From NCBI GenBank assembly GCA_021234155.1, contig JAJEKV010000058.1:5714600-5778599 (forward strand): a stretch of 64,000 nt of DNA, read 5' to 3'. Within the stretch, counting starts at the first letter, position 1, and every line of letters begins with the position of its first letter. This DNA is from Isoetes taiwanensis. Taxonomy: Eukaryota; Streptophyta; Lycopodiopsida; Isoetales; Isoetaceae. A model generated the notes under the pieces. The model made no database searches and was not told where the DNA came from. It saw nothing but the letters and a program-made list of their open reading frames with translations. This document shows positions 4,591-50,633 of this stretch, one piece after another. The position numbers were made by a program, and so were the translations under genes.

Positions 4591-4599
4591 TGATATCTC

Positions 4600-5200: not shown

Positions 5201-5269
5201 TGAGTCGGTCGTAGCTCAAGTTGGGCTTGACAAAGGTGACACCACTGAACGTCACTTCACGTTTATTGT

Positions 5270-7483
5270 TACATAGTCGACATATCTTGGAATTCTTTGA
5301 TATTTCTTTTGCTCTCCCATCCTTGTTCTTCATAAGCCCCAAGGGAAACATGGGAGCTCTCTTGTATCTGGCTCTGACTGTACAAACAGTTTGGCAAATG
5401 CGCTGATCTGAGGAACATGACTATGTGGTACACTTTTGCTTGTGTCATGCCTGCAACTCTGCTAAAAAAATCTGTATATTTTTTTACATCCCACAGCGTC
5501 GTAAAACTACGCATGTCAACGAAAATCATGGTTGCATTTTCTGACACCGGTGCAGACACAAGGATGCCAGTTTTTGTGACGTGCTGCACGGTGTTTTTCT
5601 TCTCTTTCATTTTTTTGGCTTCTTCTGGCCTCATTATAGCAATAATAGCTTCCAAAAAAACTGTTGAAAGATTACCTTGAACTGCTTCTTTATTATAGTT
5701 CGCTTTAATATATTCAAAATCTGTGTCTGCTATATCCAGGAGTCGTTGTTCAGACAGCTCTGGAAAACATGAAGCCATCTCTTCAAAATTCTTGTATTGC
5801 TTATCTGAAACAGAATTGGCATATGATAACACTTCACGACGCATGAGTGAAAGTGTTCTGATGTCTAAAGCCCTCTGACGGCAATCAAAACGTCCTGCAT
5901 ATCCTTGCTGCACTTTCAAAAAAACTTTGCCCTGTAAGATTTCGTCCATCAATTGGCTTACCTCAGCATTGTTCATTCCTCGTAGGTTTCTTAGGAACGT
6001 CTTGTTGAAAAACTCCTTTGACGGTTTCTCTGGTAATTCCCCCTGATCCTCAGTTAGCTTTCGAGCTGCCCATTTATTGACAACATCTACGAGCTTAGAC
6101 CATGATTCTTCTTGCATAAATAGGAACTGCTTTTCATCCTTAAGTTCCTTAACCTTCAAGGTTGTGGTAGCCACCTCGACAAAATCCTGTACAGAAGTGC
6201 TGGTTAGGATCACGACAGTGATTTTCCTGAACAAAAAAACGAAAAACATACCTTCCACGCGGATGTCACTGCAGTTCCTGTTGGCCCTTGTGGAGGACAT
6301 CCGAATGCCTTGTGCTGGTTTCTTAGTTGTTGGAGCTTTTCAATGAGTGGTTCTTTGTATACTGTTTCTGCGATTACATCGTTGCACTGTATAGAAATCT
6401 GAATGTATTCCTTGTTGGAGAGGTTCCCATTTAACACACGACTTCTTCTTTTTGCATATGCTTTCGCAAATTCCAGTCTTTGTTCGACATTACCCATGTA
6501 AGTGCATAGAAACTGTGCAGCAAAGATGCTGTGATTTCCAGAAATAATAAAGAATTTCTTGTTCAACAGTTCTTCAGGGCGGGACCAAGTGACTAATTTC
6601 CTGCATGGACAGCATATTGATATAAAACCAATAATACAAGCGAGAAATGAATATGATATAACTGACCTTGTTACTGGATCGAATGGAATGACATCAGCAG
6701 GTGTAAGAACCTCCGTTGGATATTTTTTGAAGCTCTTTATCAGGGTCTGGACATGGTCATTCGAGCGAACTCTATGTGTCATATTTGCGGGAGCTGGCTC
6801 GCAATCGAAAATACTGACCTTCTGGAACCAGTTTACATCCATTGGGTAATACCTTTTGAACTCTTCGAGTTTAGAGGCTGTCTCCTGAGCGAGTTTCTTT
6901 TCTTCATCTGGATTAAACTTTAATTCTTCGGGCACTCGCGCAGCAGTTGGCCAGGTCAACATACAGCTAGTAGCTGTTGGTATGGTGGACGAGGAAGGAG
7001 TAGAAGATGTCGAAGGTTGCGCACTGTCATCCGTGTTCAGCTTTGGAAGCTTGATTTTGAATGTCCTTATCTTCTTTGCTGGCTGTTCTTCTATTGCCTC
7101 AGAGTCTCTGGCGGGAGGTGGCATAAGCGCAACCGGTGAAGGGGTTCGACAACGGCGGGAACAACCAATATTTCTTTGGGGATAACCTCCATGGGGAGTA
7201 CAGTATCCTTTGAAGTGGATGGTTAAGCCTATAGCGCCCGGAGGGGCCACGGATCTCTTCTTGGCAGCGGCTCACGAGCCGGTTGGTGTCCATTCTTGAA
7301 GGCAATTTGTTGTCCTTAGTAGCCTTCAAAGCGGCCGAAGGAGGTTTCTTATCCATGAAAAGACCCTTTACGCACATACTAAATCAACAAGTATATCCTT
7401 GTTACACTTTATACCAGACAAGCTCAACGAATCATATGATGGCAGTATCCACCCAAATCCCTTTGATGAGTATCTTCCACGCT
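5270..7483 (-). CDS. ParB/sulfiredoxin-like domain plus DNA methyltransferase-like protein (element D, copy 1)
   Basis: Read from 7,483 downward: an exon after a TTTGCAG acceptor, a Pro/Ser/Thr-rich linker with a basic patch (AKKIRTFKIKLPK), then a ParB-like core. The core has MTHRVRSNDHV..LIKSFKKYP (box I-like) and FFIISGNHSIFAAQFL, whose GNHS..A corresponds to the G-H-R/S box II of ParB. Two short introns are visible: 6,601-6,674 (74 bp) and 6,187-6,251 (65 bp), both GT/AG. A helical middle region (ESWSKLVDVVNKW to EILQGKVFLKVQ) aligns with element C. The last part (ATMIFVDMRSFTTLWDVKKY..FFSRVAGM) resembles the front half of a beta-class DNA methyltransferase, without a clear DPPY. The glycine-rich SAM motif is not visible before sequence identity to a methyltransferase ends. 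The start codon is not located. ParB identity is fairly sure; the methyltransferase part rests on homology to elements A1 and C. Confidence 0.65.
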
Positions 7484-8822: not shown

Positions 8823-9649
8823 CTACCACATGCACACCTTCTTTGTGTCGGATTAAATCAAATCCGTTTTAATTTGGGAATGAAGATTGCCTCTCTTAAC
8901 AAGTCTGAGATGTTCTTGTTCTTAGGCGTTGATGTGATTCATCTTCCCTCGATGCGGTTCATCCTTACGGCACAACTAGTAGTCGTCCAGGATCATGAAG
9001 GCGATCTTCGCAACATATTCTAGACTAAGGTACCTATAAATGCTGCGGATGTAACTAGCGGTTGCACGCAAATAGACACTTGTCTTATTGACTCGGGTCT
9101 TAACACATGTCTTCTTTAGGGCGTCGACACAACCCACAGGGGTGCTCACCCGGTCAGCGGTCGCGATCACCGCTAACTCTTGAGTCTTGCTTGAAGGAGG
9201 TTTATCACGTGGCTTCTAACAAGATTGCGTATTAAGCGAGGGTAAATCATCGAAACAAGAGCAAAAGGAATATTCCTTAAAGATTCTTTTTTTTTACAAA
9301 AAGGGGTAAAATGAGGTAAAAAAAGTTGCATGAAATTCACCCAAATGACAAGTTTTTTTTTGTGGAGCGAAAAGAATTGACTTTTTTAAAGTGACACTTT
9401 TCTTAGCAAATAGAATGTTCTTGAAGTATGTTTTTGAGAGAAACTCTAATTTCAAAGGATAAAATGTTTAACAAAAATTGAAGTAAAGTCACGTAAGCGT
9501 CTTTGTAGTATTCTCAAAATTTGAAGATAAAATCTTCATATTCACATGCAAAATTCTGATCTTTTTCTAAGACTTCGGTTATGTGCAAAAGTATGAGGAG
9601 TGATGAAGGAGGGATCGAGCGTCATCATATTCTCATCTCCTTCACTTCT

Positions 9650-12634
9650 TTCCTTTTGTCACTCGAGGAAGTACTTGAGTTGTCTTCCTCATCACTATCA
9701 ACGAATTTTGAAGCATTGCCACCACCACTCCCTTCTTTATCCTCTTCCTTGTAATTACAAGCCTTTTAAAGCAAATTGATAGTTTTTAAAGCGGGGCGAT
9801 TTATGCGATTTCAATTTGAAATCATAGCATAATATAGTCACATCACTCAAGTTCAGCTCATCCCTACAACCCACTTTCTTAGACTTCCTCCCTTTTCCTT
9901 GACTTCTGATTTCTAATTCATACCTACCTTCAAAAGCATTTTACGAGCGTGTTGCCCGGCCGATTGAATCTTGAGTTTAGTTACTAAGCCTTCCTCCTCT
10001 CATTCCCTCGTCTTGGTCCAAGGTACATGACTCGGTCCTCGTCTTCCCTCTCTGCGGTGCTAATGTAGCATTGCTTGGACTGCCGTTGAAGCGTGACTTG
10101 GTTGATGGAAGGTATCGAGGGCCATTGAAATGGTTCTTGCAAGCTGTCTTAGAGCCGGGTTTTGCAAGGCGACTTTTTGGTCAAGAAAGAAATTTGTCCT
10201 GCAGCTTGATCTTCTTAGAAGTACTTAAAGCCGAGGAAATGCCATTTTCAATGGCTTTTAGGGATGTCAATGGGGTACTTTTTCTTTGCTTGGACTCCTT
10301 AGGATTTTTGAGAGGAAGTTGCTCGAAGACGCTCTCTGAGGCAATAGTGCGGAACAAATTTAAGGAAGTGCAATCCCTACGATGGACTCAATCCTTAGTT
10401 GTGGTGTACGTCTTCCCACGTAAGAAGCTTTGTCCATCCTTCAAGTAGAACTTGATGTGATGTTGAAAGGTAAGATCATTCATTTTGTTCCTGACTAGCT
10501 CTCTATCGAGCGTTGAGGAAAAACAAACTCTCTAAAGTCTGCTGGTCTCTTTAAGATGCTTTCGACCCTTTGGAGCAGGAGTGTAAGAATCTTCAATGAT
10601 TCGAACTAAAGTAGGAAGACAAAAAGCTTTCTTCCTTCTAAAGGCGCCTGAGAAAATCCTGCTGAACATCGGTCAATCGATCATGGGTGTGCCCTACAAG
10701 CAAAAAATCGAGCTTTACTTTTACGAAGATCCTTAGCTCCACTAGCATAGCACAATAAGCAAAGAGTGTTTGATTCTTGTTCTCTCTTGTAGTATTGTCA
10801 AGTTGCAAGTAAAGCACGGGTGGTAGTTGCTCTTGCTCGCACATGACCTTGTTAAGGATTGTAATTGTTAGGTTTGGGTCACCATGCAAGTTTGGATCGT
10901 CAAAATACTTTGCACTTTAAACTTCCTTTGAAGACCATGGCCCACAAGGTGGACTTTAACAAAACATTTCTCGGCACATCTTTTGGAATATTTAGGAAAT
11001 GGGGTAGAGTTGTCTTTTTCGATCCATTCCATCAATTACAATAGACATGTATTGCAATGGGCGTTTGAGTGCTTTTTACGTGCTTGGCGAGCTTTCTTCT
11101 CTCTTTGCTTGTTGTTCACGATGTCACGGCAAGATTTTGTTGCACAATATCGTAAAAAGAAATCGAGGTTAAAAAATTTCTTCAAAGCAAGTGATAGGAT
11201 GGAGGACATGAGCTTACTTCTTTTCGACCCTCTGTCTTTTGCGGTTTTCGTTGACTTTTTTAATTTGGCATCTTGAGCAAGCGGACATTCTATGTCTTCT
11301 TGGAATTTTCACAAGGCCAAATTCACTTTTCCACGGTCTCGTGAAGTGTGACTAAGAGATGTCTTTGGCCGAATGCATGTCTCTTTGTATTCTTTGAAGG
11401 CGTCCTTTTTGTAATATTATGCGTGAGATGATACATGTTCTTATTAGGCAACTTCTCACATGTCTCTCTAAAATATTTCTCCATCCATGTGCGATGGCGG
11501 GGCATGCATAGTTACAACTCTTCTTGGACCCACAGTGATCATCAATTCTTTGGGTTTTGTCGATCTTTTGTGTATTGAGACATTCTTGTGGACCCTAAGC
11601 GGTGGACAACCATGAAGCATTTTTGGCGGACTTGTTCACGGTTAATATAGTGCAAGAAGGTGTTGCGGTGCGGTCTTACATGATAAGCTAAGTAGGCATT
11701 ACAGTGCGCCAATGTCATTGAAGCGTAGTTGTCTCTAAGCGCTTTCGTAATTTGGCCATGTTAAATCTGTTGATGCAACCCAATGAGCAGCACTTAGTTC
11801 TCAGGAGTTTTCTCATTTTGTGTTCATCCATAAGGTTTCTTCTTCTTACAGAGGAGCATGCTCTCAAACCAAAATTCACCTTGAATTTCTTTGAAGATTG
11901 GCTGGAGAACATGTAATCTCGTTGTTCCTTGTTGGTGTCTTCATCTTCTGATGAAACTTCTACTCTAGGGGTGGTGTGTTTGTAGAGGAAAACAGACCAT
12001 CCCGAAAAAGACGGTAGCACAGTGTTAAAGGATGGTGATGGCCCATAAGATGTTGTGGCATCAACTGTTCTTGTACCATCCTGAAAAGGAGTTCTTGCAA
12101 ACATCTCCTTTAAATGATTTGGAATTCGCAAATCCATGTATCACAATCGTTGTGTGAAGAGGAGTACATGCTGCAGCATCGTCCTCATTTGTAGTGAAGT
12201 CCTGGTGAGAGAAATTGTAGTGAATCTCACAGTCTTCTATGTTTTCTGTGTTCCTTGTATGTTTGCATGAAGGGGGCGAAACTACAAATGGGAGGGATAG
12301 CTTGTTCTTGAGCAGCCATTGTTGTGGAGCATCTGTAGGTCTGGGGGATGGAACGAAGGGTGGTGGCAGCATGCTCGAACTTGTGGTGATGCTTTGGAAG
12401 GAGATGCCGGTAATCTTGTCTCTTTGGACTTGGTGACGGTTGGAAGGATGGTGGAAGTCTGTTACGTGCTGGACTCGGTGTGTCTTCGACAAGCAACAAC
12501 GATGAAGTAGAGGTCGTAGTCGGAGAATGCAGATCTTCGGAAGAAATGACGTTGTTCCCAAGCGTGTCTTCAGAACTAGATGAGCTTGAGACAACAAAAG
12601 GTGGTGGAAGTTAGTTCGCGAAGCGGTTCGTCAT
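9650..12634 (-). pseudogene. Element A1 transposase, QLDN/GHTH family, frames broken
   Basis: The sequence parallels the A2 transposase: ATG at 12,634 (MTNR-like start), a Ser/Thr-rich N terminus, the Cys-containing region LRTKCC..GCINRFNMAKLR (around 11,800), then LYLQLDNTTRENKNQTLF (around 10,780) and VGHTHDRLTD (around 10,690). These are the putative catalytic landmarks of a DDE-like transposase family that I recall as DUF7869 in plant annotations. The frame is broken many times, nearly always where A2 has CAG or CTG and this copy has a CG word (for example CATCTGGTCAATCTGATC in A2 against CATCGGTCAATCGATC here). Breakage may therefore be a sequencing artefact. It lacks the Helitron and element B insertions seen in A2. 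Confidence 0.7.
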
Positions 12635-13047
12635 CTTAACAAGCGCAAAAGCGATTGTAGAGATTTGAGAAACTTTCTCTAGTGCGAGCTTTTCTTATTC
12701 CGAATACCGCCCACATAGTACAAGTAGAAGTTCTGTACCAATTAAGTGAAAGGCAAACTAAAAGCTATTCCAGAATACACTGGAGTAGGACAGTAAAGCT
12801 AAACGTATTCCACTTCACATAGAATACGAGCAAGACGAAATGGATACCTTTAAAAGGAAATTTTGAAACCGGTTGCATATTCAGGTCTCGAGCTCAAATT
12901 CATGGCGCCCTTGGCCCTCGAATATAATATTCGGAGGCGTATTCGGTCGCATATAGAAGACATGGACGGTGAGCAACAAAGTACAGCGTACAATCATTTT
13001 AAGTCTGTTTCTTATTAGAATAGGTTTTGCCTTTAGGTGTGTAAGAC

Positions 13048-13152
13048 AAAGTGTATTCAGGAATACACTTTGGCTTACCTTGAAGACAAAGTGTATACGG
13101 AATACACTTTAACAATCAGCGTGAAAGCGAAAGTGTATTCGGAATACACTTT
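13048..13152. repeat. GTGTATTC/GAATACAC palindrome array between divergent genes (A1)
   Basis: Three palindromes built on AAAGTGTATTC..GAATACACTTT lie at 13,048-13,071, 13,088-13,110 and 13,129-13,152, between the transposase start (12,634) and the ParB-gene start (13,376). The centres vary (TTCAGGAA, TACGGAA, TTCGGAA) where A2 has TTCCGGAA, as expected for miscalled CCGG. The position suits an operator in a two-way promoter; that role is inferred. Confidence 0.8.
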
Positions 13153-13375
13153 CAGCCTTCACACGCGTGTGTTTAGGTTTTGAAAGGTCAATTCTTCGAA
13201 TTGTTTTCGTGAATTTTAGGCGTTTTTCATTTGTTTAGACTTGTTTAGCCTTGTTTTTCTCAAAGGCGGTGTTGTTTTGGCCTTTTGACCACTTTTATCA
13301 TTTTCTTTAGACATCTTGTATTACGGAATAGTTTTATGCGGTGTTTTCTCTAAAAAGTCGTGTTTACACACAATA

Positions 13376-16300
13376 ATGCGAGGCAAGAAGGCAGCAAGAA
13401 ACAACGGAAGAAGACCATCAAATTCTCTCGGAAAAGCACCCACAGGAGAAGGGTTGGCGATCTTCTTGAACACGCAATTTACGAGAACTTTCAAACTCAA
13501 TGGTTCTTCCACGGTACAATTTGGAAAATACTGACACCCTTACTTTCTTACATGTGCGGTTGAGTCCTGGTACAAAAAGGTATGATGACGGAGAATTTGT
13601 CTGCATGGAAGCTATATACAATTTGTGAGTGAAATAATTTGGGGAGTCAGAACAACGAGGGAGACTATCATTTCAGACATCCCAAGGTTTCATTCATGTT
13701 GATGAAGCCTTTTTTTTAGAATGGTCAAAGTAAACCCAGGCACTTTACAAGTATGTTTCCCACTACATCAACAAAGCTCGGTGCCATAATCAGCGGCGTT
13801 CGAAGCACCACAGGCGAAGACTTTGCCCCTGGCCGAGTCAAAGCGGGGAGAAGAGGAAGAACAACCGGACCGGCAGTCCATCAAGGTGGCGGCGATCCAT
13901 CGAGGATCGATGAAGCGACCACCATCACCACCACCAAAGAAGCGGAGGCTAACCGTTGCTGATAAAGAGCCTAAAAAGATAAAGCGACTTTAATTGCAGC
14001 GAAGATGCTCGAGGAAGCACCCAAGAAGAGGAAAGCGGAAGGGCAAAGCACACTGGTGTTGCCATTAAAAGAAAAGAAAGGTTGATAAAACATCGGAGAA
14101 GATGGAAGAGATTAGCTTTGCACAAGTTTGTGCAAGGTGTCATTACTTGCCCGTCACATCAATGAAGCTTCCTCAAAAATGAAGGCTGGAGAAACGACCC
14201 GCTGCGGGTTCGAAAAATATATGCAAATCATCTAAGGAACCTCAAGGGCCGAATTGAACAATCAAATGCCCATGTTGCTCCCATTGTGGTTCTTGTTGAT
14301 AAAAGCGATTGCTCAAGTCTGCAGTACGATATAGAAAAATGCGGACACATATCGCATTATGTTTTGGATGGGAACCACAGCTTCAAGGCAAGGAGGCAAT
14401 TGTACAAAGAAAAAAAGAATCCTAGGTACTTATCTGTTCTTTGTGCAGTCTATTGTGGTTTGACCGACGAAGAAGCCAAAATCATTGCCAACACTCACAA
14501 CGCTGACAACGAGTACAAGTAAAAAATGAGCTTTGTCGACAAAATTAGATTTATGCACAGAGAATATATCATTTTCAAGGAAAAGTACGGGGAGGATTTG
14601 AAAAAGCCACAGTACTCACTTGAACTTAAAAAGCTTGTGCCATTGAGTGTTGCCTTAAATGACGAAAAGGCGAACAAGCGAGGCGTCACTCATTGGTCAT
14701 GACAACTGGTTTTCAGCTAAGCGTTTAGGGATGGCCGGGTACGTTACAAGCGTATTCCAGAATAAGATTTAATGTACAACTAGCTGATGAGTTTCTTATT
14801 TTGTTTGCGGATACGGGAGCTCCAAAGCGAAATATTTAATATGTTTGAGCATGGTGAACTGAAAATTAAGGGCAAGGTCACCGGAGAAGAAAGCGGAAGC
14901 GTGCCAAAAAAAAAATGACTATCAGCATGCGGAGGGAGATCTGAGAGGTTTTGCGACCACGAGTTACTAGAAGCGGCTCTGCGAGAAGGTGGTGGACAAG
15001 GAGTTCACACTAGAAGAAATGTCGAAGGAGTTGCACAAGTAAGCATTACCATCATTCTTTGCCTTTTCATTTCTAGAATTCTACAAGAACCTCAAAATAA
15101 AAGCAATCGAAGGGTACTCACGAAAATGCTTCTTCTCCCCCTCGAGGGATGAAAGTGTATTCAGAATACACCTTTGCGCCGTTAGTGTAAAAGTGTATTC
15201 AGAATACACTTTCAATCCCAGCAATATTACGGAATACACTCTTACTTAGTGCGTTGTAGAAGTGTCTTCGGAATACACTTTTCGCTCATTCACTGCCGAT
15301 GAAAGTGTATTACGGAATATCTTCTTACAACAACAAAAATGTTGTCTAAGGCACTTGTATTCTAGAATAAGTTTACATGGCGGGGAAGATTGTTTAATTT
15401 ACTTTTGCACTTTCCAAGCTGCTAAAAGCGGTTTGTGGTTTTCTTTCAAGATAAAAAATGTCATCACACTGCGGGACATGTCGATGAGCAACTTAACGTG
15501 GAGATGTGGGAGGTGCAAGGAGCTTTATCCCATTGCTACATCCGGCGGCGTATTGTTCGATGCGCTCCAAATTTTTGAAAAGGATGGATGCGGCTGATTA
15601 AACACATCATACTTGACTTGTCTCTGTCTCAATCTCTCCTTTGTTTTGCGAGAACAAGAAGAAAAATAAGGACACCGGAAGGTTTCATGCACCTCGTGAG
15701 GCAGCACGAGAAAGAAGAACATTGGCGGATAGGAGGACTCTAGAAGTGGAGCCTTACGATTATGAAAAGTTTAGTTTATCTGACCAAAACAATTTGTTTT
15801 CTATCATCCCAGGGATGCACTAAAGCTGGTTTGGAGCGGTAAAGCCCACGAGGATTTTTACGGTGGTCATAAGCGGACCTTCCTTATGGCTTTAAACTAA
15901 AGAGCGACCATTCGACGATTAGCCTTTTTAAAAATTGAGTTTAGCGCTTTTGTCGTGACATTAAACAAGTCCAGCGGCCAAAACCACTGGCGTCTTGTCA
16001 TGTTTCATTCGAGCATGCAATCGGCCTTGTGGAGTCCACGTTCAAAAATCATTCCGGATCATTGCAAAAACTGGTTTGAAATTTGGTTTAGTAAGTAACT
16101 TATTCCGGAATACGTTGTGTTTGTTTCTTCTTTGTGTTTTCGTTTTCTATTCCAGAATATGATTGCCTTTGACTTGTTCTCTTTGTTTGTTTCTTGTTCT
16201 GTTTTCGTTAGTGACACGACTCTAATTTCTATAGGTACAAGACAAATATAAACTACCATGGCGGCCGAGGTTGCTGAGTAAAGTTGAATACCTCCATGTT

Positions 16301-16690
16301 GCTTACTGGAGTTTCGATGGCAAATGCACCATGGAGCATTTTAAACTTTGACATGCGAACTTTTTCTAATGTTTTGGAATTTCCAGCTGTGCTTCAGAAG
16401 CTACAAGACCCTAGTGCACAAGGTAGAATTGTTAATCACTACCAGAATCCTCAAAAGCTAATCAACCATCTTCTAGACATGTTTTCCGTCGGAGATTGGG
16501 TGCTTGATGCCAACACGGCTCACGGTACAACAATAGGTTGTGCACTAAGAAGGGGAATTGTGTAGCAGTGGACATAGATAAAGAAGCTGTGAACTTCATC
16601 AAGATGAGACTGGCTGCCTTGCCTACCCTACGGATGAGCACCAAGGTTAGGTGCGGATCCTCATCGATTTTCCAAAGCTGACCTCTTAGG
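13376..16690 (+). CDS. ParB-like plus beta-class DNA methyltransferase-like protein (element A1)
   Basis: The ATG at 13,376 opens a strongly basic N terminus (MRGKKAARNNGRR), likely nuclear or DNA-binding. The ParB-like core lies at about 14,235-14,690: NLKGRIEQSNAHVAPIVVLV (box I-like), HYVLDGNHSFKARRQLYKE (box II-like, GNHS at 14,370-14,381), then LCAVYCGLTDEEAKIIANTH, the usual ParB acidic 'TDEEA..A..N' helix. The methyltransferase part lies at about 16,300-16,640: QNPQKLINHLLDMF, VGDWVLDANTAHGTTIG and, one frame away, VAVDIDKEAVNFIKMRLAAL. This matches the 'KP..L...GD.VLDPFxGSGTT...GVDID..Y...R' end of PF01555-type N4/N6 methyltransferases, with DANTAHGTT in place of DPFxGSGTT. The frames are interrupted repeatedly, in part by unspliced introns and in part probably by miscalls. 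No single uninterrupted frame covers it. Confidence 0.7.
15151..15325. repeat. Second GTGTATTC/GAATACAC palindrome array (A1)
   Basis: Five palindromes or half-palindromes start near 15,151, 15,193, 15,228, 15,261 and 15,302, between the ParB-coding and methyltransferase-coding parts. Further single TTATTCCGGAATACG and TATTCCAGAATA sites lie near 16,099 and 16,150. The spacing is irregular (33-42 bp). Confidence 0.75.
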
Positions 16691-17689
16691 AGATCTGACC
16701 TCCATTCACTGACTCCTTAGATGATGAAGCTACCTTTGCGAGAGGCTGAAAGAAGTGGCACTAGCTACCATTCACGAAGACAACTGCAGTAGTAGACAAA
16801 GGGTAAGGCACAAAGAAAGGATCGGACTTCTGAGAATCGGCACATCAGAAACAAGCAAAAGAATGATGAAGACTACGATTTGGACCTTTAGTGTCTTCTA
16901 CCAAAAATTTATTACTCACCTTCATGTGTTGTTACAAAATGATGTCATTGAAACACTTTAATTATATAATGATTATTTTATTCACTACATTACGGTGTTT
17001 TCAAGAAAATACTTTTAGAGAATACAAAAGCATGTCTAAATTCTTCCCTTTTCAAGTCTTTGCTTTTGGCAAAATCCAAGTTCTTTTTGCACTAAGGGCC
17101 AAAAAGGAGTAAAAAAAATTAAGCCTATTGGAATTCCCAATTAGAAGGAAAAAAGTGTCATTTTCTAGGCGGGGTTTTTGTTTTTTCAAGGGAATCTTTG
17201 AAGCGGGGAGTCTTTGCAACACTTCCGTTTAATTTTACAATCATGTTTTACGCTTTTTGAGGCGAGCGAGAAAGTGCTACACAATTAACATCGTAGTGGC
17301 ATTTTCTCTAAGCACTAATGACCTTTACGCTTGCTGCGGCATGGCTCAAAGTCCATACTATTTTGAGTCAAAGTCAAAGAGGGAAAAGTACATAACCGAC
17401 AAAAGCACTATAACTTGCCCTTCTTAGGAAGATAGCATAGTAGTGTATATGGAAGTTCGGGGTAGTGTTACGCACATTACGTCTGAGGATGTCAGGAACT
17501 ACAAAGGTAAAATTTAGATAAAATGCATTCTAAAGGTGTATAGGCACAAAAAGCTTGGGGTCGTCGGCCCGACTTGGATAATGATCTCGATAGGGGGCAT
17601 TATTAGTAACTGCAGAAATCACGGACAAGATAGGAACTTGGGTATGCCAAGGGGTTCTAACCACATCGTGGAAATGGATTGCAAGAACA

Positions 17690-24000: not shown

Positions 24001-24669
24001 AAGGAAAGATCACGATGCATCTAAGAGCTAGATGACCCGACAATAGCGGTGATTGCGATGCTCTTCGAGTCGATCATAGCAAAGGGCACGCAAACAGCGG
24101 ATGGCCGCCCGCCCTCTGTCGCCTAGGGTTATTTCTGACTTGTATTTGCACCGCATAATAAATTCACACTTTCGTGATTAGCGGTATGTCTATAATTTGT
24201 AAAGTAGTATGACCGTGTTTTAGTTGGCCCGCCGATCATGCCCCGGTCGCATGCTGTAATTGGCACGCCTTATGAGTGCATGTCCAGAATCGGGACCTGT
24301 GATACCATTCTCGTGCTTTAGCGGCCGAATTGATGACCACCAAAATCGCTAAAACGTGTATTGCACCGCCGCTTGCGAGGAAGAAGAGACAAAACCGAAT
24401 GATAGCTCCTATACCTCCTCCTAAAGAAAGCAAGAGGCTTGAAGATACCCAACAGCTCCAAATCACGTAAGAAGGAAAGCCCAATGAGGACGCAAAGATC
24501 CTATGCATTGTCGATGGATGATAGCGGATCCATTATCGAGAAAGCACATACGCATCCTCCATGCCCCGAGGAGAAGATGGATGACAAAAAGCGGAGTGGT
24601 ATGTTGATGTAGGCAAAACAAATGGTAAGGTGGATCTTGTGTTACACTCGAAAAGAAAGAGACCGATCT

Positions 24670-27600
24670 TATGAAGAAACAAGGTATTCTTATCACTTGT
24701 GAGGAGCAGGATGACATCCGTTGTCAACTTCTAGTGGAGGTTGTGAAGAACCACAAGAAAGATCTCGCCATTTACACATGCCGTGGCAACCGCCAAAGAT
24801 GGTCCGATGAAGAAGGACGGAGGCCGAGTCATGTTTCAAGTACGGGATGGCCTCAAAATACCGCCCTCACTCCAGCTTCTATTAGTGAAGGGGTGGCCCG
24901 AAGTGAGGAGAGCTTTTGCAGGACCTTCTCCAAGTTACTACCCCGAGGAGATGAAGCATCAAAATGATATCGTGGATGTAAATGAAGATTGGCGGACTTA
25001 GGAAAGGACATCCCCGCGCAACAATGCTTGATGGCATTTTGGCGTAAAATGACTAAAAGAAATTGGTACTGAGGCAATGAGTAGGCTAGTCAAGTATGCA
25101 GACAACTACCCACTTGGCCAATCTTTTACACATCCCATCCATGTTGACCGGCCCTGTGAGATCACATAAGTCAAGTCTTGTTAGCGGTGGAGGTATGACC
25201 CCGAGCATGCAAGAGAAATATTGAGGGCGATGGTGAGGAATCCAGCCAAGTTCCTATGCCAGCCAGACGTGCTTCCTTGGGATAAGAAAAGGATGCTCCA
25301 CTCCAAAGGGACAACACTAGAAGAGCTAACAAAGGAGAACCCTAATGTATGCTTCCTTATTATTGACGGACAAAGATTCTATTGAGGCACAACGATCCCT
25401 ATCCAACCAGGCTTTGCAACCGGACAAACAATGTATCTGCTACATTACAACCACGGGAGGTGTCGGTTTCTAAGCCCCCCATACCCCTCAGCAGGGACCC
25501 GGCAGAGATTAGTGCAACATTGAACTAAATGGGCTAAGTCTTTCTTTATAAAAGGTTAGTATATTTAGTGGAATAGAGTCGATATATCAAGTAGCAATAA
25601 CAGTAGTAGAATAGGTCCAAATAGGTGTCAAGGCGTGCCAATTAAAGACCGGGCGCGAATTCATGCTGCCAATTCGCGCCGGCGGTATTCGCCCGCCAAT
25701 TGTCGCGATGAATACACGCCACGCCGCGAATTGCCAATTTCATCAGCGGACGAATACACGCCAGCGTGAATGCGCCTTGCCAATTGGCTACCGGCATGTA
25801 TTCATGCCGCCTATTTCGGACGATTTTATACATGCGGCCGCGAGCCGCTGGCGTGTATTCATCTTTGCCACTACTGGCGTGTATTCGTCCGCTGAATTGT
25901 CGGCATGAATACACGCCAGCGCCGAATTGGCAACGCATCACCGATCAAAATGCGATACATTGGCAATTCGCGTGTGGCGTGTATTCATACTGACAATTCA
26001 CGGACGAATACACGCCAGGCGCGAATTGGCAGCATGAATACACGCCACATGCGAATTGGCACGACTGCCTTTGACCTTTCCTGATTATCCTGTTTGCTTG
26101 ATCTAAAAAGCGGTTCTTTTGTATGCCCTGCTCATATTGGCTGACATGCTTTCCTCACACGTGCAGCCCTTACGTGGAACAACTCCACATGCCCGCCAAA
26201 GAATGGATAGAATATGGAAGACCCCTGCAAACAAAACAGGGAGGAACGAAGTCTGAGGAGTTTAAAGCATTGGAAAAGACCTTGGCTCAGACTATCATCC
26301 AAGATAGGAAACCAAGAGCCAAAAAAACGAGAAAAAAAGCGGGAGGAAGCAGCGAGACGTCCCCAAGCAGCCTTCCGTGAGGTCCTACCGATGCCTACAA
26401 GATCGTCTTCGCTAAGGACGAAGTCTGGGCGAAGTGGAATGAGTTCTGGGATGCTTATGCTCAGAAACAGCTACCAGACCCAATGGGACGAGGGCCTCCT
26501 CAAGATACTTCAATATTTGATCTCAAGACTACCGAGATGAGGAAAGTACAGGGCCTCCAAGATGATGAAATCATTTGGTTGTTAAATCAATGCATAAACA
26601 AAGAAGTTATGTACAAGAAGGCTTCTTCAGTTAAGGACAAAATGTCCTTCATTGATTGTTGCACTCATATAAAGAACATGCGAGTTATGAAGGTAGCAGT
26701 TGGTGAAGAACTTCAGAAGCTATCTGGTGATGTAACATTGTCCAAGTCGGCTGCTAGACAAGTATGGCGTGTCTCACGATGACATCAAGAAATACGTCTT
26801 TTGGTCGAAGGAATTTTTGCAAAACAGGAAATCGAAGAACCAACAGCACACCTCAAAGCTATCTGATAAGGTGATGGCTGAGCTGAGAAGAAAGGTTGCC
26901 GTCCTGAAAGATGTTGGTGGTGACTTACCTGCACTCCAATACCTGGTCTCTATCGGCTATAAAGGTCTCCCACCCGATACAACAATAGGCCCTCGTAATA
27001 TTTCTCTGCTTGTATTGGATAGCGGGACCCAAAAGGAGAGAAGGGGATGACTCAACAGAGTATAGCAGTTTTTTAGTAGTCGCATAGGTTTAACAACTCG
27101 TAGCTCTTTACTATTGTCATCATATGCCCCTCAGGAGAGCCTCATATGCATGCTTTGGTGGCTTCATACGACTTGGAATGCCTAAAGGTCGTTAGGGAAG
27201 GCTCTCTTCTCTTTGAGACAAAGGATACTGATTTGAGGATGCAGTATAAAAGCACTTGTATAATCTTCATAATGATATCCCTTGTGCTAGATGACGACTA
27301 TGAGGTAGCTAAGAGCAAAGGGGCATCGGATAAAGGTGCATGGCAGTGTTTTCTTTTGGATGAACCCAACTTGAAAAATGTCTTCTACAAAGCAGATGAT
27401 GAGGATGAAGCAAATGAATGCGAGGAATTTGATGTTCCTAACCTCTACCGCAAAGACATCACTCTGGAATTGCTGACAAAAGAAAAGGGACCCTTGAATA
27501 AACATGGGTTTGCAATCAATCTGGCAAGCTATCTTGTTGAGGCATTTGCACCACTTGATACCACTTGCTGTGAATTGCATGTTGGAGGGTATATTGGTAG

Positions 27601-28037
27601 AGAGGCCCTGAAGACATCAAGAAGATGTTTAAGTTTCGTCAACGATGACCAGTCCAGGGATTTGCTTGAAGTGTTTCTCGAAAAGGTACTAGCCACGGCT
27701 GATTGGGGTCCCCAAAAAAAAAAAAAAACTGGCTTTTTGGTACCTTACGAAGGGCAGAAGCAGAATACTAGTTCACAAAAGCCTACGAGTGCAACTCCAG
27801 AATGTTCAAAAAGCAATGCAACCCCCGAGGAGAAGGCCAAAATGCTAGAGCGGGAACGTGAGACCATGGAGAAAAATTTGGAGTCCATGCTTCATAACAT
27901 TCCAACTGGTAATGTCCAAATTTTGGGGTACGAAAAGGGCAGTTCCCCGATACCAGCCGGGATGATCATGCAAGCTCGGATGCAACCACCGAGGTTAGGG
28001 AATCAAACCCCCTGTGGTAGCTTTCATAGAACGTAAC
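24670..28037 (+). CDS. ParB-like plus DNA methyltransferase-like protein (element C), frames broken
   Basis: The order of parts matches element D. The N-terminal part near 24,780-25,000 contains LKIPPSLQLLLVKGW. The ParB-like core at about 25,190-25,400 reads YDPEHAREILRAMVRNPAKF and, near 25,350, CFLIIDGQ (the DGQH-type box II, damaged after GQ). A palindrome-rich stretch follows (25,640-26,060). The middle domain (26,400-27,030) has EVWAKWNEFWDAYAQKQLPDP and IFDLKTTEMRKVQGLQDDEI, alignable with the element D ESWSKLVDVVNKW region. The last exon-like frame (27,146-28,037) contains KHGFAINLASYLVEAF, then CCELHVGGYIGREALKTSRR and CLSFVNDDQ, corresponding to the SAM-binding half of the A1 methyltransferase but with a degenerate motif I. 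A FCP1-like phosphatase follows on the same strand. Several breaks fit introns; others look like indels. Confidence 0.6.
25640..26062. repeat. Array of GAATACACGCC / GGCGTGTATTC inverted units (element C)
   Basis: GAATACACGCC occurs on the plus strand near 25,711, 25,754, 25,908, 26,005 and 26,037. Its complement GGCGTGTATTC occurs near 25,850, 25,881 and 25,976, with a GGCATGTATTCATGCC palindrome near 25,793. Most are joined by AATTGGCA/TGCCAATT words. The GTGTATTC core is the same as in the family A palindromes. The array falls between the ParB and middle domains of the element C gene, perhaps in an intron. Confidence 0.8.
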
Positions 28038-28254
28038 GTGTCCGAACTTAACGGTGGCATTCATGCTTCCGACGAAGAAGCATCCGGGGAGTGAAGTAGA
28101 CGCTAAGCCCTCCGCCGGATGACGGGCGACGATGAAAGGTAATTCACGCCAGCGATATGTAGCTTTGTTATGAAGGATAAAACGCAGCTTGGCGGTATTG
28201 CGAACACTTTGCATGGCTAACTCTTTGTTTTCCATGGTTCTCGGGCTCCACCGC

Positions 28255-28884
28255 TTGTGACAAAATCATTGTCTTCGATCCAATGGTATCCTGTGTAAAA
28301 CGTTTCCTAAGAAGCTTATTAACAGTGATGACTTCGAGCAAGTCCCTCTAGAATCGAATACTAAGTGGATCTATCCTCGTCCACACTTAGAAGATATGAT
28401 GAATGAGGCGTTCAGATTGTTTCGAAGTTGCCATCCGGTCCTCAATGGAATCACGAAAATGTTGAATGAAGTACTTAGGGTGTTACCAGGCATGAATCGA
28501 GACTTTGTGACGATTTGGGACCAAAGTAAGTGTATAAAGTTTCCATATCCAAGAGATCCGGATGGCAAACCGGTCTTCGTGAAACATCTTGGTACTATGA
28601 TGGATCAGCTTGGCATTCAAAAGAAAGAGGACATCATAATAGTAGATGATGATGCTCTTAAGTGCTTTTATAATCAAGGTCAGGCTCTAAATCCACCAAC
28701 TTATACTCCACAAGATTACTCAACAGATGAGTTTCTAGTACTATTCATGTCCATCATGAGTGGCTTGGCTTCTGGTAAAACAATATCAGATGTTGTCGAA
28801 ACGCATCCAGAACTAGATCGGACTAAAGAGATGGATCCCTATCTTGAGAGTTATTTGACAAAGAAAGGACTAGTCCCTCCATGA
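28255..28884 (+). CDS. FCP1/NIF-like HAD phosphatase (element C)
   Basis: The frame starts with KIIVFDP near 28,261; after a one-base deletion the next codons would continue the motif with an N-G pair, as in the element B gene. It then runs WIYPRPHLEDMMNEAF, DFVTIWDQSKCIKF, PVFVKHLGTMMDQLG, DIIIVDDDALKCF and a C-terminal tail, stopping at 28,884. This is the order of the FCP1 homology (NIF) domain of the haloacid dehalogenase superfamily: nucleophile Asp motif, RPY/RPH, WDQ.C, the conserved Lys, and the VDD acidic pair. Known members dephosphorylate phosphoproteins such as the RNA polymerase II tail; the target here is unknown. It is followed 230 bp later by a terminal repeat shared with element B. 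Confidence 0.75.
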
Positions 28885-35625: not shown

Positions 35626-37754
35626 TGCTTGAGAAGGACGTTGCATGTTTCTAATAGAAGACTTAGTGCATTAACCTATCTCTATTGTTGTTGAATCTTA
35701 TTATTGCATTATAACCGTTGGATGAGGGCATATTCTATAGCATATACCCTCACATCCCATCCAAGCCATACACATAGTCGATTGACGGGGTCAATTGTTC
35801 ATGTGGCTCTATAATTGAGGCTTTGATGACCATTAGGTAAAATAAGAATACAGATTGGACTTATTAATAGACACTTCCAATTGAATAGCAAGTTTCTTTT
35901 CATCCTGCAATAAACAAGGGTGTGTCATTATGTTGAAGTTCATTCTCAATATAGGAGCCAAACGCGATGCTCAGATATTGTAGCCCTAGATATTCGAACA
36001 CCATATGCAAAGCACAATTCCAAATAGTCTAGCCTCATGCATATTCAGAATCAAACTCAATGTCTTCCACATGACATCTTTGAAGAGGATCTGGAGCATC
36101 AACAATCCCAGGAATAACTACCACATCTGCACAACATGAAACCCTTGCATAAAAATAAAAGACAAGAAACAAAAATGGCTCTAAATGGTTATGCACTTTT
36201 GCAAGGATTCCTGTTCATGCACATTGTATATGTTCATGAACATTGCATATGTTCATGCCTTACTTGTTTAACAAAGAACCAAAGAAAAAGAACAAAGTAT
36301 GGACTAGAACTAATTTTTGGCTCTGCATATTGGCTACACATGAATAGATCATAAATGAAGTCGTATTATATTATACAACAAGCATGAGTTACAACAAGGG
36401 CCTGCACAAAATCGGCATGAAGGAATCTACAAAAAGAATCCACTGCCAAATAATAAAAAGAAGCCCTTTATACTTAACATCTCCGGATATGCTTTATAAG
36501 AACAAACAAGTTAAGCTGCAAATACACAAAACACACACATGTGCAGAAAAATCTGGATATGGGGATGCATAAGACCACAATGGGAATTATGGTGATGCAG
36601 AACCCAAATATAGAAATATTTGTGCTCCTGCAACAACGCAACAACCGCTATTACGGGCTCCTGCATCAAACCTATGAAATCTAACTTAAGGAAAAAAAAC
36701 AAACAAAGAGAAGTTGTAAGATGCCAAACTTGCTCATTTATCTACGTATTTATATCACTTTACTATTAACAATCTTAGGTTATTTTATACGATCGTTATG
36801 AAAGGGCAAACAATATTGATGCATGAGGAAACATGTAACTTAATACACTTTCAATTGTGTTCTTCATTTGTACTAGGTACTAGAGCTCCTTTTCCTAATT
36901 CTAGAATTGGAGATTTCACCATGTTCATTATTGCCAAATGCAAAATGGCATGTCATGCCATTCTAGCACAATATTTTTTTTTTTAACAAACTAGTGTCAT
37001 ATCATTTCATGTTGTATGATCTGTTCCTCAAGTAGTGTCTTAGTGTCAACAAAGAGGCAAATCCTCAGCAATAGAGTGTCACAGGGGATTTTGCTAAAGG
37101 AAGAAACTAGAAATCAAGAACAAATGAACTGAAGAAAAGAAATGGAGAAACGATACGCCAAGAGAAAAATCTTTGAGTGTTCAAGGAGAATACATGAGAT
37201 CTCCCAAACACGGAGATAAGACAACAAAAATAACAGGATTTGTCTAAGCTTCTAAATCTAAGCTTCTGATATATATAGTACAACGGCCTTGGATAACAAG
37301 ATTGCGTATTAAACGGAAGCAAATCATCGAAACGAGAGCAAAAGGAATATTCCTAAAAGATTCCTTTTTTTTACAAAAAAGGGGGTAAAATGAGGTAAAA
37401 AAAAATTTGCATGAAATTCAATTTTGACCCCCCTTAAATGACTAGTTTTTTTGTGGAACGAAAGAATTGACTTTTTTAAAGTGACACTTTTCAGAGCAAA
37501 TAGAATGTTCTTGAGTATGTTTTTAGAGAGAAACTCTAATTTCGAAGGATAAAATATTTAACAAAAAATTGAAGTAAAGTCTGTAACCGATACTGTAGTA
37601 TTCTCAAAATTTGAAGATAAAATCTTCATATTCACATGCAAAATTTACAGTCTTTTTCTAAGACTCAGTTATGTGCAAAAGTGTGAGGAGTGATGAAGGA
37701 GGGATCCAGGACGTCATCATGTTCATTTATGCCATCCTCATCTCCTTCTCAGAG

Positions 37755-39727
37755 TCAGTCACTCCAGTCAATCCATAGATCGTGGGACGGATAGGGTGGG
37801 CCCAAACTTCTTTCACTGTCACTTGAGGAAGTGCTTGAGTTGTCTTCCTCATCACTATCAACAGATGGTGAAGCATTGCCACCACCACTCCCTTCTTCAT
37901 CCTCTTCCTCGTAATTACAAGCCTTTTTAAGCAAATTAACAGTTTTTTGGCACAGACGATTGTCTGATTTCAATTTGAAATCATAGCATAATATAGTCAC
38001 ATCATTCAAGTTCAGCTCATCCCTACAACCCACTTTCTTAGACTTCCTCCCTTTTCCTTGACTTCTCATTTCTAACTCATACCTACCTTCAAAAGCATTT
38101 TCTGAACGTGTCACCAGCCAGTGAATCTTGAGTTTAGTTATTAAGCCTTCCTCCTTGACTGTATCAAGAACTTTTGCTATCCAAAAGGGTCGACCTTTGT
38201 CATCTTCCTCAGTTGGAAGAGCAATCAGCATACCTTTGGCAATTTCTGTGATATTGCCTTGAGGCTCATTCCTACGTCTTGGTCCAAGGTACATGACTCA
38301 GTCCTCGTCTTCCTCTGCTGCAGGTGCCACTGTAGCATTGCTTGGACCTGTTTGATTCTGGGGTTGATGGAAGGTATCAGGCCATTGAAACGGTTCTTGC
38401 AACTGTCTTAGAGCTAGATTTTGCAAGACCTCTTTCTGGTCAAGAAAGAAATTTCTCCACCACATTTGATCTTCTTCTGAGAAGTACTTGAAGCCCGAGG
38501 AAATGCCATTTTCAATGGCTTTTAAGGATGTCAATGGGGTACTTTTCTTCTGCTTGGACTCCTTAGGATTTTTGAGAGGAAGTTGCTCAGCACGCTCTAT
38601 GAGGCAATGGTCTGGAACAAATTTAAGGAAGTGCAATCCCTCTGCTGGACTCCAATCCTTAGTTGTGGCGTACTTCTTCCCCTGTAAGAAGCGTTGTCCA
38701 TCCTTCAAGTAGAACTTGATGTGATGTTGAAAGGTAAGATTCAACTTGTTCACAGCCAGTTCTCTATCTGAACGTTGAGGAAAAACAAACTCTCTAAAGT
38801 CTGCAGTCTCTTTAAGAAGCTCGACCACTGGAATAGGAGTGTAAGAATCTTCAATGACTCGAACTAAAGTAGGAAGACAAAAAGCTTTCTTCCTTCTGAG
38901 GCGCACAGAAAATCTGCTGAACATCTGGTCAATCTGATCATGGGTGTGCCCTTACAAGTAAAAATCCGAGCTTTACTTTTCTGAAGATCCTTAGCTCCAC
39001 TAGCATAGCACAATAAGCAAAGAGTGTTTGATTCTTGTTCTCTCTTGTAGTGTTGTCAAGTTGCAAGTAGAGCACAGGTGGTAGTTGCTCTTGCTCGCAC
39101 AGGACCTTATTAAGGATTGTAATTGTCAGGTTTGGGTCACCATGCAAGTTTGGATACGTCAAAAATACTTTACACTTTAGACTTCCTTTAAAGACCATGG
39201 CTCCTACAAGGTGGACTTTAACAAAACATTCCTCTGGCACATCTTTTGGAATATTTAGAAAATGGGGTAGAGTTGTCTTTTTTTGATCCATTCCATCAAT
39301 TACAATGGACATATATTGCAGTGGACGTTCGAGAGCTTTTTTTCTGTGTTTGGCGAGCTTTCTTCTCTCTGCTGCTTGTTGTTCACGATGTCTGGCAAGA
39401 TTCTGTTGCACAATGTCTGTAAAAGAAATCAGGTTAAAAATTTTTCTTCAAAGCAAGTGATAGGATGGAGGACATGAGCTTATTTCTTTCGACCTCTGTC
39501 TTTGCAGTTTCTCGTTGACTTTTTAATTCTGCACATCTTGAGCAAACAGACATTCTGTGTCTCCTTGGAATTTTCACAAGGCCAAATTCACTTTTCCACA
39601 GTCTGGTGAAGTGTGAGTAAGAGATGTGCTGAAACTGAATGCATGTCTCTTTGTATTCTTTGAAGACGTCTTTTTTTGTAATGTTGTCTGTGAGATGATA
39701 CATGTTGCTATTAGGCAACTTCTCACA
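37755..39727 (-). pseudogene. Element A2 transposase, C-terminal part (piece 3 of 3)
   Basis: Reading downward: NSNMYHLTDNITKKDVFKEY, VCSRCAELKSQRE, YMSIVIDGMDQKKTTLPHF (candidate first catalytic Asp), LYLQLDNTTRENKNQTLF (second Asp), a GHTHDQIDQMFSRFS motif split by a one-base insertion near 38,945 (A1 lacks the extra base), then a long C-terminal region. An in-frame TGA at 38,295-38,297 separates the last part, MYLGPRRRNEPQGN..PFWIAKVLD..LKIHWLV, a BAH/Tudor-like fold by sequence impression, followed by an acidic Ser-rich tail. In the element B transposase the equivalent region is one continuous frame. A gap of ordinary frame near 39,412-39,433 may be an intron. Confidence 0.8.
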
Positions 39728-42700: not shown

Positions 42701-42777
42701 AAGTTGCACATATGAAAGGCCGGGCAAAAACACATCCCAGAACATTAGCCCGGCAACGGTGGGCACCCGTTTACTAG
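39728..42777 (+). mobile_element. Non-autonomous Helitron, 3,050 bp, with precise empty site
   Basis: The insert starts TCTACTTATTT and ends ...GCCCGGCAACGGTGGGC-ACCCGTTTACTAG: 5' TC, 3' CTAG, and a GCCC/GGGC hairpin a few bases before the end, the Helitron signature. It sits exactly between A (39,727) and T (42,778). A1 shows the uninterrupted site at 11,460/11,461 (CTCACA|TGTCTC). No Rep/helicase is encoded. An exon-like piece at about 41,570-41,653 (VLESYGMEQEFSFPDVRWYC, bordered by AG and GT) suggests captured gene fragments whose source I do not recognise. Confidence 0.88.
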
Positions 42778-43800
42778 TGTCTCTCTAAAATATTTCTCCA
42801 TCCATGTAACAGCAGCCAGGGCATGCATAGTTACAACTCTTCTTGGTCCACAGTGATCATCAATTGCTGGGTTTTTGTCCAGTCTTTTGTGTATTCGAGA
42901 CATTCTTGTGGACCCTGGTCGGTGGACAACCATGAAGCATTTTTGGCAGACTTGTTCACGGTTAATGTAGTGCAAGAAGGTGTTGCGGTCTGGTCTTACA
43001 TGATAAGCTAAGTAGGCATTCTGGTCTGCCAATGTCATTGAACTATAGTTGTCTCTAACTGCTCGTAGTTTGGCCATGTTAAATCTGTTGATGCAACCCA
43101 ATAAGCAGCATTTAGTTCTCAGGAGTCTTCTCATTTTGTGTTCATCCATAAGGTTTCTTCTTCTTACAGAGGAGCATGCTCTCAAACTAAAATCCACCTT
43201 GAATTTCTTTGAAGATTGGCTGGAGAACATGTAATCTCCTTGTTCCTCGTTGGTGTCATCATCTTCTGATGAAACTTCTACTCTAGGGGTAATCTCCTCT
43301 GTCCTGATTGGTGTATTTGTAGAGGAAAACAGACCACGTGAAGTTGTTCCCAGAAAAGGCGGTAGTACAGTGTTAAAGGATGGTGATGGCCCATAAGAGG
43401 TTGTGGCATCAGCTGTTCTTGTACCATCTTGAAAAGGAGTTCTTGCAAACATCTCCTTTAGAGCGGACTGGAATTCTGCAAATCCATGTGTCACAACCGT
43501 TGTGTGAAGAGAAGTGCATGCTGCAGCATCGTCCTCATTTGTAGTGAAGTCCTGGTGAGAGAAATTGTAGTGAACCTCACAGTCTTTTGTGTTTTCTGTG
43601 TTCCTTGTATGTTTGCACGAAGGGGGCAAAACTACAAAAGGGGGGGTAGCTTGTTCTTGAGCACCCGTTGTTGTGGAGCATCTGTAGGTCCGGGGGATGG
43701 AACGAAGGGTGGTGGCCGCATGCTTCGAACTGGTGGTGATGCCTTGGAAGGAGATCCCAGTGTCATGTCTACTGGACTTGGTGACGGTTGGAAGGGTGGT
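42778..43800 (-). pseudogene. Element A2 transposase, central part (piece 2 of 3)
   Basis: An uninterrupted frame from the element B junction to the Helitron junction. It contains a Ser/Thr/Pro-rich N-terminal portion, then SLRACSSVRRRNLMDEHKMR, LLRTKCCLLGCINRFNMAKL, HYINREQVCQKCFMVVHRPG and MEKYFRET. Cys pairs suggest zinc binding before the catalytic region. Frame integrity over 340 codons shows that this copy is recent or well sequenced. Confidence 0.8.
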
Positions 43801-44049
43801 AACCATCATTCAATTAAATTGGGATTATGTCTTAATTTTGGGATAAATTTTATATTGCACTTTTTTAGTAACTTTGTTAAATTCACTTTTTAGTATCTTT
43901 GTTGCCCTTAGACTAGAATAGACGTTAACATATAATCATACACGGGAATATAAATTCACACCTTAACTTCAAATTACAAATTCATATATCATGAAACTCA
44001 AGTAGTACACAACTTTTATTAAAAGTGATTGATACATAGTAACTGTTTA

Positions 44050-47019: not shown

Positions 47020-47039
47020 GCCATTGACCTAGAATGCAT

Positions 47040-47530: not shown

Positions 47531-47559
47531 TTTCAAGTTAGCCTTCCTTTTCAAACTTT

Positions 47560-48260: not shown

Positions 48261-48435
48261 ATTCTCGGGTACAGAACACAAATAGGTTAGTATTTCCTGT
48301 TATATACATAAAGTAGTTATTTTACATAAAGCAGTTCCTCACAGGATTGGTTCTGTGATCTTGCCTATATGATCTGCTCTTATTCTATTTCACTAGGTCT
48401 TCCTCTATCTGTTCTAATTAATGATCTAAAATAAT

Positions 48436-50588: not shown

Positions 50589-50633
50589 TTTTTTAAGTTT
50601 ATGTTCTATTATAATGCCTTATTTATGCCAAGC

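Follow-up and report, generated by a model that had tools for sequence, protein, structure and literature searches.

Among described systems, the closest to the one analysed here is Sola1-1_Ec32 of Ectocarpus, a Sola1 transposon of 21.5 kb with an accessory gene on the strand opposite to its transposase; in the available text of the report (PMC12477816), this gene is predicted to encode a single 1104-aa protein that joins a ParB-like DNA-binding domain to an N4C/N6A DNA methyltransferase (MTase). The same text refers to similar proteins in green- and red-algal transposons (Iyer, Abhiman and Aravind 2011; Petroll et al. 2025, Bostrychia), cites the red-algal reference for giant EnSpm elements that carry more than one accessory gene, and proposes that proteins of this type bind the transposon encoding them and modify it (PMC12477816). 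Genes of this kind are, therefore, already known in algae. In Arabidopsis, VANC motifs are arrayed in VANC introns and in the upstream non-coding regions of VANDAL transposons, and the VANC21 motif has nine bases in one orientation, according to the accessible part of PMC5735166. A further case from an excerpted source is N4CMT of bdelloid rotifers, a bacterial-type N4-cytosine methylation in a eukaryote (PMC8885841). Here, we analysed 64,000 nucleotides of the lycophyte Isoetes taiwanensis (contig JAJEKV010000058.1, positions 5,714,600 to 5,778,599; hereafter the window, C1065:5714600-5778599 in the searched genome of 1,658,258,908 bases and 1110 contigs) and provide support that, in the family of one of its elements, A1, a beta-class MTase moves jointly with a ParB-like domain inside a DNA transposon that bears introns and is present in multiple copies. 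The open-access literature searched yielded no land-plant transposon with ParB and MTase; as far as these searches reach, what is new is a high-copy vascular-plant family, its selection record and its candidate recognition arrays.

The initial annotation of this DNA had proposed that the gene moves, introns included, inside a eukaryotic DNA transposon, which it placed at 13376-16690. Inverted ends, target duplications, multiple copies and four introns bear the proposal out; the limits do cover the gene, but the element itself spans 9218-17247. Ten copies taken from the best ParB matches, mostly for their open frames (c952, c1100, c1051, c920, c1066, c1063, c1028, c1052, c1026 and c1076), were fetched with their flanks and compared. 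Transposons of the Sola superfamily are described, in the available part of PMC10741241, as having 4-bp target site duplications, terminal inverted repeats of 11-1124 bp and sizes mostly of 2-9 kb. The A1 family measures about 8.3 kb and has sharp ends common to the compared copies, inverted over about 25 bp (AACAAGATTGCGTATTAAACGGGAG versus AACACGATTGCAAATTAAACGGGAG, 22 of 25 positions matching). A perfect 4-bp duplication flanks each of the seven copies, of ten examined, in which both ends were found (ATGA, TGTT, TAAT, TTGG, ATGG and CTCG in six copies by end search, CCTA in c920), and six of these seven are full-length at 8.2-8.8 kb. Size, ends and duplications thus fit the Sola superfamily. 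A1 itself is decayed, its flanking 4-mers (TTCT/TTAC) mismatch, and its features are the following.

9218..17247, + strand: whole A1 transposon copy, decayed, 8.03 kb; piecewise end-to-end alignment gives 79-84% identity with c952 and 80-83% with c1063
9218..9242, + strand: left terminal inverted repeat; 32 of 40 bases match the family left end
9600..12650 (approximate), - strand: remnant of the DUF7869 transposase gene, aligned to the transposase half of the fetched copies
13050..13150, no strand: palindromes between the divergent genes, at sites 13050, 13090 and 13132
13354..14738, + strand: predicted exon 1, covering the ParB-like domain and, before it, an N-terminal domain and a basic linker; frames interrupted; donor GTACGT
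14811..15038, + strand: predicted exon 2; acceptor AG lost in A1; donor CACAA|GTAAG in nine of nine rows compared
15154..15279, no strand: palindromes of the exon 2-3 intron, at sites 15154, 15192 and 15261
15451..15587, + strand: predicted exon 3 (approximate), from the exon alignment of nine rows; donor GT lost in A1
15653..16090, + strand: predicted exon 4, MTase catalytic half with motif IV (ADLPYGF by eye), frameshifted in A1
16235..16891, + strand: predicted exon 5, MTase SAM-binding half; its motif I has decayed in A1, where it reads DANTAHGTT; end set by eye
17223..17247, - strand: right terminal inverted repeat; the right-end alignments of c952, c1063 and c920 stop at 17247

No recognisable own end was found for c1066, c1076 or c1100 among the ten copies. 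More family ends occur near 17821 in the c1066 neighbourhood and at 2261 and 14317 in that of c1100, which suggests additional short or truncated derivatives there.

The transposase gene of c920 matches PF25273 (DUF7869) at 2.3e-52, and DUF7869 matches are present in all ten copies, often broken. Among the best 150 of 9392 transposase candidates in the genome, there are 33 pairs with one of the best 150 ParB matches within 7 kb, all divergent and none otherwise arranged. The term DUF7869 was not found in the open-access literature searched. We read the family as a putative Sola-like cut-and-paste transposon with a DUF7869 transposase, a classification that we weigh jointly with the function proposed below.

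Divergent from the transposase gene, the right half of the element holds the ParB-MTase gene in at least five exons. Nine rows (A1 and eight of the fetched copies: c952, c1100, c1051, c920, c1066, c1063, c1028 and c1052) agree in four intron positions, after ...RDG+, ...ELHK, ...EGW and ...ENLVW, and GT or AG stands at 65 of the 72 splice sites, counted by eye. The seven sites without it are the exon 2 acceptor and exon 3 donor of A1, the exon 4 and 5 acceptors of c1028, the exon 5 acceptor of c1063, and the exon 4 donors of c952 and c1066. Judged from sequence, the exons probably join into one protein of roughly 950-1000 aa, with the predicted order N-terminal domain (zero Pfam matches), basic linker, ParB-like domain, linker and MTase over two exons. 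When the best 150 genome matches of each half are considered, 47 ParB-MTase pairs lie within 6 kb, against 0.04 expected, all on the same strand with ParB first and a median of 2.1 kb apart.

What the initial annotation saw in A1, a ParB-like box followed by a methyltransferase-like half, was confirmed. The MTase half (about 16235-16891) belongs to a typed query that, in its best local alignment, shares 83% identity with P0001, and P0001 matches PF01555 (N6_N4_Mtase) at 5.2e-18 and CcrM (6pbd) at 3.7e-10. P0001 and P0002, which are C-terminal pieces without a stop on public contigs 1272 and 2179 bases long, score 66.2 and 59.5 bits, above the PF01555 cut-off of 26.7. The A1 copy itself reaches 12.6 bits, below this cut-off; its frame is broken and its SAM motif has decayed to DANTAHGTT, versus DAFSGSGTT in other copies. 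Motif IV (IADLPYGF) stands in exon 4, and motif X (KPQKLINKLL) followed by motif I (DAFSGSGTT) in exon 5; the motif order IV, X, I is that of beta-class N4/N6 DNA methyltransferases. DLPYGF is present in all eight copies reaching exon 4, DAFSGSGTT is exact in six of eight, and c1051 has zero stops in all five segments compared. Read from these motifs, the MTase of the family is a predicted beta-class N4/N6 enzyme, motif-complete in several copies, whose target in DNA may be either N6-adenine or N4-cytosine. A typed mosaic of exons 4 and 5 matches 626 phage records (22-28% identity in the 25 listed), and the MTase half finds only distant, generic MTases, such as L051 with 34% identity over 59 residues.

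The ParB-like domain of A1, in the frame at 14166-14522 (...RVRKIYANHLRNLKGRI...VLDGNHSFKARRQLYKEKKNPRYLSVLCAVYCGLTDEEAKIIANTHNADNEYK), matches phrog_1033 'ParB-like partition protein' at E = 0.0031 and, read across an in-frame stop, PF20188 (DUF6551) at 0.00056, below the family cut-off. Among its relatives, P0006 matches phrog_1033 at 5.7e-07 (residues 99-243) and L002 at 0.0058, and L021 matches only the related phrog_723, at 0.29. No phrog_1033-type match was obtained for P0003, P0004 and P0007 up to E = 1 or for P0005, P0008, P0010 and P0011 up to 0.1, and P0009 gave none. DUF6551 matches five of five and five of ten members in two scans (best 0.00034, all shown below cut-off), the ParB_N profile (PF02195) has zero matches in the genome, and searches of PDB sequences with the ParB half gave chance-level matches only. 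The domain contains the residues RVRKIYADHLRNLKDRI...VLGGNHSFKARRQL...TDEEAKIVANTHNADNEYKLKMSFVDKIR, in an order that we take to follow the ParB element order. Overall, the domain is likely ParB-like. A second protein group from ENA and JGI contigs (P0003-P0011) has the ParB half in common at about 40% identity, and the open frames of six of its nine members (P0003, P0004, P0006, P0007, P0008 and P0009) end at the place corresponding to the exon 2 donor.

ParB and beta-class MTases are typical prokaryotic domains, which raises the question of bacterial contamination or an assembly artefact, a concern already voiced in the initial annotation. Such an origin is exceedingly improbable, because many different contigs of a single 1.66 Gb genome carry copies and no ParB relative was confirmed in prokaryotic or viral collections at the sensitivity of the scans, pattern scans of viral and prokaryotic contigs having a limited distance reach. 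The introns and the duplications in different flanks also speak against it. A phage or giant-virus origin of the ParB half was considered and rejected, with no relative confirmed in viral contigs and a best phage match at E = 3, in scans of the same limited reach. A search of the A3 profile against 5.8 billion proteins returned nothing, not even P0003, which is in the A3 alignment, and is therefore treated as uninformative.

Out of 2776 ParB and 3184 MTase candidates in the genome, each half has at least 150 scored matches; the best 150 each were considered, with A1 among the 150. By hand count, 121 of the 150 ParB matches and 100 of the 150 MTase matches contain no stop, a best-scoring set that is biased to intact sequences. 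The ratio of non-synonymous to synonymous divergence (dN/dS) was computed with stop codons omitted, and many pairs were saturated and gave no value. Between subfamilies, silent sites are near saturation and the proteins are kept. In the ParB-like domain, c1051/c920 gave dN 0.062 and dS 1.99, and dN/dS was at most 0.11 in all computable pairs without A1. The corresponding values (dN/dS) were 0.120/1.158 for c952/c1051 and 0.176/1.414 for c1051/c920 in MTase exon 5, and 0.022/0.289 for c952/c1066 in exon 4. The divergence between subfamilies shows purifying selection on the protein. Many single copies are broken, A1 included, as would suit a captured host or bacterial gene carried as passenger cargo without function for the transposon. 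We consider this quite improbable in view of the low dN/dS that divergent subfamilies hold, the open frames counted above, and the six of nine second-family members whose frames close at the exon 2 donor place; moreover, the brown-algal Sola1, as far as the available text of PMC12477816 describes it, has the same divergent layout.

We show that all ten copies carry a 24-bp palindrome like AAAGTGTATTCCGGAATACACTTT, with 4-11 sites per element. One to six of them lie between the divergent genes, c952 and c1100 having a single one there, and the exon 2-3 intron holds three to seven. Considering intervals below 150 bp, 52 of 61 are 41-43 bp, or about four helical turns. Sites within an element are 84% identical over the palindrome and 39% over the adjoining 8+8 bases (391 pairs; site picking by palindrome likeness raises the first figure), suggesting that the site is kept while the spacers drift. 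The half-site GAATACAC occurs 34 times in the window versus 1.0 expected, and 33 of the 34 fall into clusters in A1 (12), in the right piece of a second copy of the family (13) and in a distinct element, C (8); the remaining one, at 42889, lies in another piece of the second copy. In the flanks of the fetched copies, seven neighbourhoods have none, that of c1026 has one, and those of c920 and c1100 have 16 and 15, which lie at or near further family ends. In the c1051 element (positions 4000-4084), the spacers are themselves weakly dyad-symmetric by eye, e.g. GCCCTTCAGTCGAAGAGC, so that dyad axes may alternate about every 21 bp in this array. The clusters outside A1 are placed as follows.

24629..28884, + strand: gene region of element C, a divergent protein followed by a NIF phosphatase-like open reading frame (ORF) at 28261-28884
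25710..26043, no strand: half-site array (GAATACAC) of element C, eight in 334 bp, in both orientations
37295..51942, + strand: second, interrupted copy of the A1 family, in pieces 37295-39728, 42778-43800 and 50984-51942
51649..51864, no strand: array of six palindromes in the second copy, with site starts from 51649 to 51845

ParB-like domains are commonly DNA-binding modules, as in bacterial ParB, and palindromes lying beside and inside the protein's own gene would be a natural target for one. In the reading that we favour, the ParB-like part would bind the palindromes between the divergent genes and in the intron, and binding would bring the C-terminal MTase onto the element DNA. N6-adenine or N4-cytosine methylation would then keep host silencing off the promoter and could mark the element for its own transposase, a VANC-like action exerted with a bacterial-type writer enzyme. 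The initial annotation had drawn the same analogy, which gains support because the palindromes sit between divergent genes and in an intron, like the VANC motifs. We infer a single product, its binding, methylation and anti-silencing from this arrangement, and give the account, jointly with the Sola-like nature of the element, a probability of about 0.5.

A more elaborate form of the proposal is conceivable but doubtful: the ParB-like protein would load at parS-like, 42-bp-phased palindromes, spread and methylate, and the mark would separate the family's copies, gene-less derivatives included, from host DNA and shield them from 5mC silencing. The protein of element C is very different from that of A1, which makes the shared half-site notable, and a recognition code kept between such deeply diverged families would be ancient. 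As for gene-less derivatives, one beside c920 (13049-16784, 3.7 kb) retains the two family ends and two arrays, is flanked by a perfect duplication (TTCT), and aligns to two full elements only at the ends and arrays; an array likewise persists in two left-end fragments next to c1100. Array retention in the derivative fits either protection or mobilisation in trans. Kept in the derivative and the fragments, the array may also be needed in cis for mobility, as expected if the arrays are internal transposase sites or a promoter operator and the ParB-MTase protein acts elsewhere, for instance across the whole genome or, as a co-factor of transposition, on a transposon that has been excised or is replicating. 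In full-length copies, however, the two groups of sites are about 4 and 6 kb away from the left end and not at the termini, and one of them falls within the ParB-MTase intron; we regard this alternative as unlikely, albeit the most serious of the competing explanations. Own-site recognition could act in trans on all related copies, so the MTase might instead silence or limit its own or competing elements as a copy-number brake. The data here do not distinguish a brake from anti-silencing, but the VANC precedent, to the extent that the available text covers it, points the opposite way, and a brake seems rather improbable to us.

Several observations weigh against the anti-silencing account. Canonical ParB combines a CTP-binding GERRxxA motif with a parS-binding helix-turn-helix; here GNHSFKA stands, by eye, in the place of GERRxxA, and the Pfam matches of the ParB-like proteins include no helix-turn-helix family. 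The ParB assignment rests on modest E-values, with several relatives lacking a match, and the structure that AlphaFold predicts for P0003 is of low confidence (mean pLDDT 39.1), with residues 185-331 showing the element order E-H-E-E-H-E-H-H. No ATG lies near the start of the frame entering the N-terminal domain in A1, c952 and c920, which makes a further 5' exon possible. On the MTase side, motif I reads DAFSGSRTT in c1052 and is frameshifted in c1028, and stops occur in exon 4 in two of eight copies and in exon 5 in three of eight, in addition to frameshifts. A deletion has left c1026 with 6.6 kb and no MTase, and for c1076 the search for a right end gave none. The dN/dS of exon 5 in c952/c1066 is 0.086/0.133, and single-pair maxima reach 0.90 in the N-terminal domain, 0.84 in exon 4 and 0.93 in exon 5, as is expected of decaying copies. 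Finally, it could be the transposase or some factor of the host that recognises the arrays.

The ParB-like plus methyltransferase-like combination had also been claimed for element C and, in its ParB-like part, for an element D and its copy. In C, DGQ is present (LIIDGQRFY near 25370, by eye) but carries little weight, since it amounts to three residues only, and the supposed SAM half at 27104-28036 found no support: hhalign against the A1-type MTase gave a probability of 0.1%, and there was no Pfam MTase match. A weak alignment (E = 0.0014, probability 17%) was obtained for the part of C that corresponds to exon 2. Beside C, the ORF at 28261-28884 contains an NLI-interacting-factor-like phosphatase domain (PF03031, 3.5e-07) and is possibly another accessory gene. 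Element D is placed as follows.

5269..7271, - strand: ORFs of element D with the GNHS motif; ParB kinship weak

In D, GNHSIFAA is indeed present, but only 20 residues around it align (E = 0.0035, probability 9%), and its downstream ORF has no MTase match in profile comparison. The first ~8 kb of the window (1-8000), D included, recur at 58469-64000 with 96-100% identity, about 56-58 kb on, as either a tandem duplication or an assembly haplotype artefact; the supposed copy of D lies in this near-identical repeat and is therefore not an independent locus. Upstream of the D ORF, the palindrome ATCGCGGCCGCGAT occurs three times, once with a substitution (7780-7963), and again at 63781-63964, possibly a D counterpart of the A1 array.

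Two pieces of the second A1-family copy are separated by a different DUF7869 transposon-like stretch (43800-50984), in which the ORF at 44050-45708 matches PF25273 at 3e-38 and that at 49574-50068 looks, by eye, similar to the NIF phosphatase-like ORF beside element C. Elsewhere in the window, 31226-32293 is a retrotransposon gag-like ORF of 355 aa with a zinc-knuckle-like CYYCKEARHISAHC (by eye).

The status of 6mA in plant DNA is contested, according to the part of PMC12695648 available. A high-copy family with a motif-complete amino-methyltransferase under selection and a candidate site offers this question a defined place, enzyme and sequence. The A1 family may represent a second, independent anti-silencing system of plant transposons beside VANC, in a lycophyte, and its palindrome arrays make the bind-and-modify idea of the Ectocarpus authors, as put in the available text, directly testable.

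Compared with VANC, as far as its available description goes, the A1 family shares a transposon-encoded accessory protein and arrays of short motifs in introns and upstream regions, whereas its site is a 24-bp palindrome in place of the nine-base, single-orientation motif of VANC21. The A1-family protein also carries a DNA MTase domain, and VANC is, to our knowledge, not known as an enzyme. With CcrM (6pbd) and the beta-class MTases of phages (phrog_67) it has in common the motif order IV, X, I and 22-28% core identity (25 of 626 phage records); it differs from them in being spread over exons, in having DLPYG where DPPY is the usual form of motif IV, and in its N-terminal ParB-like domain, for which the scans confirmed no prokaryotic relatives. 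N4CMT, in the excerpted description, is likewise a bacterial-type amino-methyltransferase in a eukaryote. It is reportedly a rotifer host gene that silences transposons and not a transposon gene. The red-algal case, as described second-hand, concerns giant EnSpm elements, in contrast to the DUF7869 transposase of the A1 family. Sola1-1_Ec32, at 21.5 kb and from a brown alga, differs from the A1 family in size and host, and its available description makes no mention of palindrome arrays; a comparison of the two by description alone shows that they share the divergent layout and the joining of a ParB-like domain and an MTase in one predicted protein.

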